From positions 4,092,001-4,156,000 of the forward strand of contig NZ_CP019082.1 of NCBI RefSeq assembly GCF_001956985.1: a stretch of 64,000 bases of DNA, read 5' to 3'. Shown here piece by piece: positions 12,607 to 14,727 of the stretch (position 1 is its first letter; each line of letters starts with the position of its first letter). The notes beneath the pieces are model-generated. The model was not told where the DNA came from. It saw nothing but the letters and a program-made list of their open reading frames with translations, and did no database searches. A program made the translations under genes and the position numbers. Source of the DNA: Paludisphaera borealis (GTDB lineage: Bacteria; Planctomycetota; Planctomycetia; Isosphaerales; Isosphaeraceae).

Positions 12607-12804
12607 ACGCGATTTACCTTTGGGCTGCGCGCAATCATCAAGACAAGCTGTTGCGAGCATGCCTTCTCCCCTTGCGGGAGAAGGTGGCCGGCACGGCCGG
12701 ATGAGGGGTGAGCATCATGGCCTGGGCATCATCAAACGCCTCGGCGGTCGAGTACCCCTCATCCGCCCCTGCGGGGCACCTTCTCCCGCAAGGGGAGAAG
12801 GGAT
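12607..12804. repeat. Palindromic repeat element (GCGGTTT family), copy A
   Basis: The left end is ACGCGATTTACCTTTGGG (12607-12624), related to the terminal repeats of copies B and C. Two palindromic blocks follow: CCTTCTCCCCTTGCGGGAGA at 12662 onward, and the inverted block at 12755-12801. Each block is a hairpin in RNA, and the two arms also pair with each other across about 45 bp. No right terminal repeat is visible, so the element seems truncated beside the stop codon of the acyltransferase gene. It could serve as that gene's transcription terminator. Confidence 0.75.
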
Positions 12805-12811
12805 TTCAGCC

Positions 12812-14473
12812 TCAAGCGACGACCGCCGGCTCGCCAGCGCGCGTCGGCCGCTCGCGCGGGCCGTTCAGGAAGCGGCCCAGCCAGGTGTAGCGGACGAAGG
12901 TCTGGTACGTCCAGAGCAGGAACAAGGTCACGACCGCGACGATGATCAGGAATTTCAACGGGGCCGGCAACGGCCAGTCTCGCACCGCGTACTGGGCCGC
13001 GATGACGAGCGGCGTGTGGGCGAGGTAAAGCCAGTAGGCCGAGTCCGACATGTACCGCGTCGTCGGGCTCTCGACCGCGCAGATCCGCCGGAACAGCCCC
13101 ATGAGGCCGAACGTCATGAGCCAGGGATAGGCCGCCTGCAACGTGATCGAGAGAATCCGGCGGGTCGGCGGGTCGAGCGCGACGCCCAAGGGTCCGGCCC
13201 ATCCCCCGAGGAGGGCGAGTTCCAGGGGGAGGACGATGAGGAACGCGATCGAAAGCGGCAGCAGCCAGCGTTCGCCGACGCGGCCGGATCGATCGTCGTA
13301 CCCGAAATAGAGCGCGCCGAAGCCGAAGAAGATCGCGTAATACGCCAGGACGTGGGGGATCGGCAGGAGGCCGGTCGAGGTGTCCGGCCCGAACAGCGGC
13401 GAGTCGCCGCCGCCCCCCATGTACGACTGGGGGATCATCGTCAGGGGGATCAGCCAGAGGTAACGGGCGGGCGAAAGGACCAGCCACGCGGGCAGGCGGA
13501 TCGACGGGAGCCGGGCGCCGAGGGCGGAGAGAGCCGCCATCCCGAGCACCAGCCACCAGAGGAACCAGAGGAACCAGAGGTGGCTAAACAGCGGCATCTG
13601 CATGAGCAGGTCGGCCAGGCCCGCCTTCTTCATCCCCTCGGTCGCGCCCCGCTCGCGCAGGTACGCCGCGACGGCCGCCTTGCGGCTTCCCAACCCATCC
13701 TCGTTCACCTTGAGCTGGAGGAGCGACGCGAAGAAAAGCGTCGTCGGCTCGTCGACGACCGCGTTATCCAGCGGCGTCTCGCCGCGCTTGTTCTCCGCGT
13801 TGACGTTCGCGCCATTTTGAACGAGCGTGGCGACGGCCTTCTCGTGGCCCAGGAAGGCCGCCGCGTGCAGGGGCGTCCCGCCGTCGCTCGCGGCGGCGTT
13901 CACGTCCGCGCCGCGGCGGATGAGCAGTTCGGCGGCCTCCGCGCGATCGGCGAGCGCCGCCCAGAGCAGCGGCGTCATGCCGCGCTCGCCGTCCCGGCCG
14001 TCGACCGCCGCCCCGGCCGCCAGGTGACGCTCGATCGCGCCGAGGTCTCCGGCGTCCGCCGCCGCCCAGATGTCCGACTTCCCTTCGGTCGACGACGCGC
14101 CGGCGGGCTTCCGCGAGGCGGACGACATCGCCACGCCGGAGATCCAGTTCGTGAGCGGGATGATCGTGACCAGCCCCAGCAGCAACGGCAGGAACACCCG
14201 GCGGAACCGGTGCTTGACCAGCGCCCCACGGCCTCGCCGGCTCATCAGCATCGCGCTGAAGAAGCCGCTCATGACGAAGAAGAGCGGCATCCGGAAGCCG
14301 TGGACCGCCGAGAAGAAGACGCCGAAGCCGGGCGCTTGCCGACGATCCGAGACGACCCAGAACGCCGGGAAGAACGAGAGGGCGGAGTGCAGCGCGATGC
14401 CCAACAGCATGGCGACGGCCCGCAGGGCGTCGAGGTCCGATCGTCGGGCGAAGGGGGGGGTGTTGGTGCTCAT
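12812..14473 (-). CDS. Acyltransferase-3/OpgC-like membrane protein with ankyrin insertion
   Basis: 553 residues from the ATG at 14473 (MSTNTPPFARRSDLDALRAV). The first three helices carry features of the acyltransferase 3 / glucan-modifying family: SDLDALRAVAMLLGIALHS and FRMPLFFVMSGFFSAML. Residues 132-280 are then a block of ankyrin repeats (GDLGAIERHLAAGAAVDGRD, GGTPLHAAAFLGHEKAVATL, NGANVNAENKRGETPLDNAV). From 299 (HLWFLWFLWWLVLG) the remaining membrane helices resume to the end. The enzyme class transfers acyl groups from a donor to envelope glycans or lipids. A longer upstream frame exists but runs into repeat copy B, so the later ATG is preferred. Confidence 0.85.
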   Translation of the reverse strand: MSTNTPPFARRSDLDALRAVAMLLGIALHSALSFFPAFWVVSDRRQAPGFGVFFSAVHGFRMPLFFVMSGFFSAMLMSRRGRGALVKHRFRRVFLPLLLGLVTIIPLTNWISGVAMSSASRKPAGASSTEGKSDIWAAADAGDLGAIERHLAAGAAVDGRDGERGMTPLLWAALADRAEAAELLIRRGADVNAAASDGGTPLHAAAFLGHEKAVATLVQNGANVNAENKRGETPLDNAVVDEPTTLFFASLLQLKVNEDGLGSRKAAVAAYLRERGATEGMKKAGLADLLMQMPLFSHLWFLWFLWWLVLGMAALSALGARLPSIRLPAWLVLSPARYLWLIPLTMIPQSYMGGGGDSPLFGPDTSTGLLPIPHVLAYYAIFFGFGALYFGYDDRSGRVGERWLLPLSIAFLIVLPLELALLGGWAGPLGVALDPPTRRILSITLQAAYPWLMTFGLMGLFRRICAVESPTTRYMSDSAYWLYLAHTPLVIAAQYAVRDWPLPAPLKFLIIVAVVTLFLLWTYQTFVRYTWLGRFLNGPRERPTRAGEPAVVA

Positions 14474-14563: not shown

Positions 14564-14727
14564 GCGGTTTGCGTTTGGGTTGCACTCGTAGGGGCGTCCC
14601 TTGTGGGCGCCCGATCGGCGTCGGCAACCGTGGCGGCCTTGGCGATTCGGGCACCCACAAGGGGTGCCCCTACAGCGATATGGGCTTCCCGCGCACACCG
14701 GATGCGTGCAAGCCAAAAGTAAACCGC
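14564..14727. repeat. Palindromic repeat element (GCGGTTT family), copy B, both ends intact
   Basis: 164 bp with imperfect terminal inverted repeats: GCGGTTTGCGTTTGGGTTGC at 14564-14583 and the complement of GCGGTTTACTTTTGGCTTGC at 14708-14727. Inside are two inverted arms, one around GTAGGGGCGTCCCTTGTGGG (14588-14613) and one ending GGGGTGCCCCTAC (14648-14673). The inner arms differ from those of copies A, C and D but match the element at 34161-34246. It sits in the 297-bp divergent gap between the acyltransferase and the small gene at 14771; nothing else is seen in that gap. Confidence 0.8.

Follow-up and report, generated by a model that had tools for sequence, protein, structure and literature searches.

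The window analysed here, a stretch of 64,000 nucleotides, carries a gene whose 553-amino-acid product, P0001, joins an acyltransferase-3 (AT3) membrane domain to an ankyrin-repeat module with a family-specific cap, set into the loop between the third and fourth transmembrane helices (TM3 and TM4). The gene, the predicted fold of both parts, the invariant AT3 residues, the conserved site of the insertion, a tree compatible with one gain and later losses, and the duplications of the inserted module all come directly out of the computation. The explanation that best covers them, to which we give about an even chance, is an enzyme of the TmAT superfamily that would carry acyl groups from cytosolic CoA to an acceptor outside, with the ankyrin module docking that acceptor or a partner.

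ORF inspection placed the gene at 12812-14473 on the minus strand, where the first-pass annotation had put it, with an ATG at 14473 and a stop codon ending at 12812. The Pfam profile Acyl_transf_3 (PF01757) matched at 94.4 bits (cut-off 31) in two stretches, the best of them covering residues 13-113, and the two halves taken separately gave 63.2 and 37.4 bits in a genome scan. Pfam also recognised Ank (PF00023, 58.2 bits, cut-off 21.1) and Ank_2 (PF12796, 55.6 bits, cut-off 27.3, residues 137-228). An AlphaFold2 model made from an alignment of 40 homologues (mean pLDDT 87.0, pTM 0.79) has TM3 at residues 82-102 followed by a helix at 104-119, ankyrin-type helix pairs including a two-helix cap at 135-274, TM4 at 297-319 and the C-terminus shortly after TM10. 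The whole ankyrin domain spans approximately residues 132-281, so that Pfam and AlphaFold2 agree with the earlier claim of about 150 ankyrin residues between helices 3 and 4, the helix ends shifting by no more than about 10 residues.

All parts of the gene lie on the minus strand. The first part of the membrane core (residues 9-113, 14135-14449) contains TM1-TM3 with the DxxRx10H and RxxR motifs and was delimited from invariant alignment columns (the 40-row alignment A1, described below) and predicted helices. It is followed by a variable linker (residues 114-134, 14072-14134) of low conservation and low pLDDT: the mean majority fraction in A1 is 0.30 at residues 114-136 versus 0.69 in TM1-3, and residues 120-132 have a pLDDT under 50 and are poorly ordered in the model. 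The ankyrin repeats proper (residues 135-240, 13754-14071) are supported by Pfam, by conservation and by structural comparison with VIA-align, where the modelled solenoid (range 132-279) matched known ankyrins with Z up to 21.4 and an rmsd of 1.7 over 125 aligned residues, a match that is far above chance. By inspection of the sequences, the last repeat is non-canonical, with a family-specific extension of about 20 residues (approximately 241-260). Its cap (residues 241-279, 13637-13753) forms two helices and was defined from the sequences, the A1 columns and the model, and elsewhere in the family it is duplicated together with the repeats. The second part of the core (residues 293-545, 12839-13597) contains TM4-TM10, begins with an HLWFLWFLWW motif and was assigned from Pfam, A1 columns and predicted helices. 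Inverted repeats lie just outside both ends of the gene, one at 12659-12709 / 12754-12804 (51-nt arms, 90% complementary) and the other at 14588-14614 / 14647-14673 (27-nt arms, 89% complementary); these palindromes are possibly REP-like elements or a terminator. Of the 12 Acyl_transf_3 stretches in the genome of the window (7.65 Mb, 99.9% complete), the two parts of P0001 account for two, and P0001 is the single Ank_2 match in the 7.65 Mb, while five genomes of the same genus have 8 to 34.

Relatives of P0001 were gathered by scanning the contigs of the genome collection, which gave 68 loci. Alignment A1 consists of P0001 and 39 full-length ankyrin-AT3 proteins from these loci, 40 rows in all; the 29 loci left out of it form five groups, namely fragments (L060, L081, L085, L089 and L093), double-module proteins (L071, L075, L076, L082 and L088), ten ankyrin-less proteins (L080, L086, L094-L099, L101 and L103), eight ankyrin-only proteins (L100, L102 and L104-L109) and L079. 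Every one of the 40 rows keeps D15, R18 and H29 of the DxxRx10H motif in TM1 and R89 and R92 of the RxxR motif at the cytoplasmic end of TM3, and further columns of the same invariance include R10, D13, A16 and L17. Both motifs are described as conserved and essential in AT3 proteins in parts of two published accounts (PMC9833829, PMC12423673). The AT3 profile in two stretches and the invariant motifs of the first part uphold the view that the membrane segments on both sides of the insert keep family features.

The fold of the core was examined in an ankyrin-less relative, L086, because ankyrins filled the structure list for P0001. The L086 model (pLDDT 91.7, pTM 0.91) aligned with human HGSNAT at Z 15.2 (294 residues, rmsd 5.0) and with GWT1 at Z 11.1 (286 residues, rmsd 5.3), the latter to be read with the caveat that between helical folds a Z below about 13 may arise by chance; the next unrelated structure reached Z 3.6. 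Foldseek alone also ranked HGSNAT first, but with an E-value of 0.27. HGSNAT and GWT1 are members of the TmAT superfamily and resemble L086 in fold, yet their sequence identity is 11-15%. We read the core as the ten-helix TmAT fold, a predicted fold that comes from the relative L086 rather than from P0001 itself. P0001 is likely to be a working integral-membrane acyltransferase of the AT3/TmAT superfamily, its activity being predicted from sequence.

The first-pass annotation had called the protein acyltransferase-3/OpgC-like, and while the first half of that label stands on the PF01757 score, the second does not go beyond that of the nearest named family. AT3-only proteins such as E. coli OpgC/MdoC have PF01757, DxxRx10H and RxxR in common with P0001 and differ from it in that P0001 has some 150 residues of ankyrin and cap in the TM3-TM4 loop. 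The best NCBIfam label of P0001 is indeed MdoC/OpgC (NF003014), at 132.1 bits, about 206 bits short of the equivalog cut-off of 338, and E. coli OpgC as the positive control scored 637.2 bits. The marker of the OPG pathway, MdoG/OpgG (PF04349), was found in none of 45 genomes of the order, the window genome included, with a positive E. coli control. Orthology with OpgC was rejected on these two grounds, and since the score lies so far below the cut-off and opgG is missing from all 45 genomes, OPGs are unlikely as the acceptor of P0001.

Acyltransferases with ankyrins at the same site, the search for which had been proposed as a check, turned out to be numerous. A match of some kind to P0001 is present in 41 of the 45 genomes of the order, and by profile search and long matches the family itself is present in 16 of them, among these all six examined from the window's genus. 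One of the 16 carriers, G006, has an incomplete copy: its open reading frame (L011, on G006:C132) holds part of the ankyrins and TM4-10, with unrelated sequence in place of TM1-3, and may have been rearranged or misassembled. Planctomycetota supply full-length relatives with the insert at this site, as do MAGs assigned by their labels to Acidobacteriota, Verrucomicrobiota and Poribacteria; among the isolates with an ankyrin-AT3 protein are Paludisphaera soli, Thalassoglobus neptunius and Rhodopirellula rubra, all Planctomycetota. At E <= 1e-60 the A1 profile matched 88 of the 397 genomes sampled from the class Planctomycetia, to which the window belongs, and 18 of the 392 sampled from the phylum, two samples drawn in different ways; an E-value cut on the whole profile is not proof of the insert in each row, most of the matches listed being nearly end to end. 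One genome of the family has several ankyrin-AT3 genes (L013 and L032 on G005:C115, L033 and L034), two of them in tandem on one contig.

That the ankyrins were inserted into a loop and not fused at a terminus, as first proposed, is borne out by the relatives that have none. Between the equivalents of residues 118 and 293 there are 174 residues in P0001, 39 in L086, 17 in L080 and 21 in E. coli OpgC. L080 is from a SAR202 MAG and L086 from an Acidobacteria MAG; a domain search found no ankyrin match in either, and their core segments are 49-56% identical to P0001. L089, on the same Acidobacteria contig as L086 and about 8 kb away, is a second ankyrin-less AT3 copy, truncated near TM4. Two trees were built. 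The first, with 80 rows, the partial row L013 dropped and the long E. coli OpgC branch as root, left the ankyrin rows L079, L084, L090 and L091 at an unresolved root and needed four changes of the ankyrin label. The second, made from core columns only, with 74 rows and also without EcOpgC, L026, L095, L027, L033 and L034, put 56 ankyrin rows together with L080 and L086 on one side of a branch with support 100/99.8 and needed three changes, compatible with a single gain of the insert followed by two losses (L080 and L086). Three of the four rows floating at the root are in A1, where their alignment continues across the cap, a point in favour of a common origin of the insert. As placed on the tree, the module was lost twice with the core kept, which would mean that it is not needed for the core reaction. 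The repeats and cap have also been duplicated together in two separate lineages (L071/L075/L076 and L082/L088), where the copies within one protein are 49% identical in L071 and 44% in L088, and because they were duplicated together twice, ankyrin and cap seem to evolve as one unit. In the AT3 relative L026 (G026:C126) some 58 residues rich in Pro and Gly occupy roughly this site, so the TM3-TM4 loop may tolerate different inserts.

The module also has a conserved hydrophobic pair. Phe occupies position 13 of the repeat around residue 200 (F207) in 35 of the 40 A1 rows, and Phe followed by Leu, Phe or Met occupies positions 13-14 (F207-L208 in P0001, 13850-13855) in 33. We take these sites to be ankyrin-repeat positions 13 and 14 in DARPin numbering, positions that are randomised in DARPins since they face the ligand. 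Among control ankyrin repeats Phe-[LFM] was seen once in 137 (none of the 80 from the same order, one of the 57 from other contigs; a recheck that excluded the AT3 loci left no AT3 open reading frame among them), and as the 40 rows of A1 are related to each other, a Fisher p-value for 33/40 versus 1/137 overstates the evidence. A narrower control gave Phe in 2 of 20 repeats and Phe-[LFM] in 1 of 20, and Phe was not among the eight commonest letters at position 13 in the first control of 41 repeats. In control repeats position 13 is most often filled by Arg, Ala, Tyr or Glu, and position 14 by Glu, Asn, Arg or Lys. In each of the five double-module proteins both copies have retained Phe at position 13. 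Ankyrin proteins and DARPins have the solenoid fold and TPLHxAA-type motifs in common with P0001, but DARPins randomise positions 13 and 14 where the P0001 family keeps Phe-[LFM], and the non-canonical extension of the last repeat is found in the P0001 family, unlike in ankyrin proteins and DARPins. The conserved Phe-[LFM] face suggests a ligand or surface to which each module would bind.

The side of the membrane on which this face would lie was approached through charge and precedent. Lys and Arg make up 21.9% of the A1 residues in loops predicted inside versus 7.9% in those predicted outside, a comparison in which the insert contributes most of the outside residues; taken singly, the other predicted outside loops have 2.0 to 8.7%. 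The net charge per sequence is +5.8 in the TM2-TM3 loop and -6.1 in the ankyrin part, a bias that is uneven, as the predicted inside loops TM6-7 and TM8-9 have only +0.1 and +0.5. Ten helices and an inside N-terminus would mean that an insert after TM3 faces outward. A long periplasmic loop at the same TM3-4 position is described for OafB and Oac, and in OafB it borders and helps to delimit the pore, according to the parts of PMC9833829 that deal with these proteins. From the charge bias and the AT3 precedent we infer that the ankyrins are outside the cytoplasm, and topology together with the same precedent would place them by the acyl-transfer pore.

The working of such an enzyme can be proposed as follows. 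Acyl-CoA would bind from the cytosol at the arginines of DxxR and RxxR, and the acyl group would be exposed through the pore that the ten helices enclose, with His29 near the site of transfer, and passed to an acceptor outside the cytoplasmic membrane, most likely a glycan or glycoconjugate. The loop between TM3 and TM4, which borders the pore in OafB, would have been expanded into the ankyrin and cap module, and the module at the outer mouth would dock the acceptor or a partner protein. The outside location, the enzyme activity and the docking role are the parts of this explanation that go beyond the computed features. The first-pass annotation raised the idea that the repeats could bring a partner or substrate to the catalytic face, and both the inferred outside position and the conserved hydrophobic pair agree with it, the recruitment itself being a proposal. 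To our knowledge, neither activity nor substrate nor partner has been measured for any member, and a literature search returned no such report for an ankyrin-AT3 protein. The nearest parallel is found in the AT3-SGNH proteins OafB, OafA and OatA, which likewise have an AT3 core with an extracytoplasmic domain, as described in parts of PMC9833829 and PMC9558356. Their SGNH domain is C-terminal, behind helix 11, and is believed to carry out the last transfer step, unlike the ankyrin module of P0001, which has no known catalytic fold and lies between TM3 and TM4; no SGNH or lipase Pfam match was found in P0001 at E up to 1. HGSNAT has an extra domain that is described as luminal and distinct from SGNH.

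The neighbourhood of the gene was compared by setting the reading frames of window positions 1-32000 against ten 19-kb Isosphaeraceae regions (L111-L120). The nearest neighbours in the window encode an FG-GAP/ASPIC protein, a protein without a Pfam match and an NHL-repeat protein, and no gene-specific neighbour common to the ten regions was found. The FG-GAP protein was matched in one region (L115) and the DUF1559/N-methylation family in four; because two members of the latter are in the window and several match sites are in L113 and L114, we take it as a probable multi-copy family and not a linked neighbour. The gene seems to stand alone in Isosphaeraceae. Within the Pirellula subclade, 9 of the 11 tree rows have a divergently oriented pair upstream, a response regulator with a histidine kinase (L061, L064, L066-L068, L070, L074, L077 and L078; in L067 the pair has Trans_reg_C and HAMP/HisKA domains), an arrangement which suggests that expression there is controlled by a signal. 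The pair was not found in L069, nor in L073, which has only about 2.3 kb of upstream sequence, nor matched in the fragment L081 outside the tree, and the arrangement does not extend to the window's clade. A conserved reading frame lies close to the gene in L066-L068 and L077; in L067 it is immediately downstream and encodes a HlyD-type membrane-fusion protein. The early-branching L079, L084, L090 and L091 have FHA-domain-like and redoxin-like reading frames (labelled by eye) as common neighbours. PADLOC matched only the ankyrin part of P0001, and no defence role is claimed.

Several other readings have to be weighed against the docking of an acceptor or partner. The chance that the architecture is an artefact of assembly or annotation is negligible: the open reading frame is uninterrupted in a 7.5-Mb contig, and the family occurs in 16 of the 45 genomes examined from the order, while the isolates and MAGs that carry it bear the labels of four phyla. 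Nothing at this locus speaks for an artefact, although one relative, that of G006, does carry an incomplete copy. Uniqueness to a misassembled locus had been named as what would overturn the first observation; the architecture instead recurs in named isolates and many independent MAGs, and the artefact was rejected because independent genomes carry it. Most of the well-known ankyrin repeats work in the cytosol, and this lends something to the notion that the topology is reversed from the AT3 norm, with cytoplasmic ankyrins binding a cytosolic regulator protein. Three helices precede the insert, however, and the Lys/Arg-rich loops alternate as they do in a protein with its N-terminus inside; with the same loop periplasmic in OafB and Oac, as described in part of the AT3 literature, we consider reversal very improbable.

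Stronger competition for the docking role comes from readings that accept the outside position. The module could be a gate, lid or oligomerisation element whose hydrophobic pair packs on the outer loops or on another subunit and controls access to the pore, and the conservation of the pair across the family is what an intramolecular contact would produce. Modelling of OafB, as reported in part of PMC9833829, also has its outside SGNH domain opening and closing like a lid. A single contact site, however, would not require both copies to keep Phe-13, as they do in all five double-module proteins, and relatives without any module retain the core, so that we regard such an element as unlikely, perhaps one chance among a few. 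Rather less probable is that the pair anchors the enzyme to the membrane surface or to a lipid-linked carrier, raising the local amount of acceptor without specific recognition of a protein. Phe followed by Leu, Phe or Met, where the controls favour Arg, Ala, Tyr or Glu at the first site and Glu, Asn, Arg or Lys at the second, would suit an anchor, as would a module joined to the membrane domain at both ends, but the module is acidic overall (net about -6), which disfavours binding to anionic lipids, and the ten neighbourhoods have no constant neighbour that would name a carrier. Docking of an acceptor or partner is about evenly balanced against the gate or oligomerisation, membrane-anchor and other roles taken together.

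The broader significance lies in the possibility, which we hold tentatively and at somewhat below an even chance, that these proteins form a third architectural class of AT3 beside the AT3-only and AT3-SGNH proteins. Such a class would carry an outside, exchangeable head of ankyrin plus cap in the pore-mouth loop, with a conserved hydrophobic face for recognising the acceptor or partner. The history of this head would comprise one gain, at least two doublings and at least two losses, and about a fifth of Planctomycetia (the 88 of 397 sampled genomes) would carry it. The literature search, whose coverage left most subscription journals outside, found no paper on an ankyrin-in-AT3 architecture, and the word ankyrin is absent from the main text of PMC9558356 and PMC12423673. 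The relevant parts of the AT3 review PMC9558356 rank the fusion to SGNH as the commonest one and present as an open question how AT3-only proteins manage the transfer and whether they need any partner. The family provides a natural series of the same enzyme with zero, one or two inserted modules, and with it a way to test what the TM3-TM4 loop does. If the proposal is true, bacteria would have a conserved use for ankyrin repeats outside the cytoplasm, and the family would offer an entry point to the modification of the envelope in planctomycetes.
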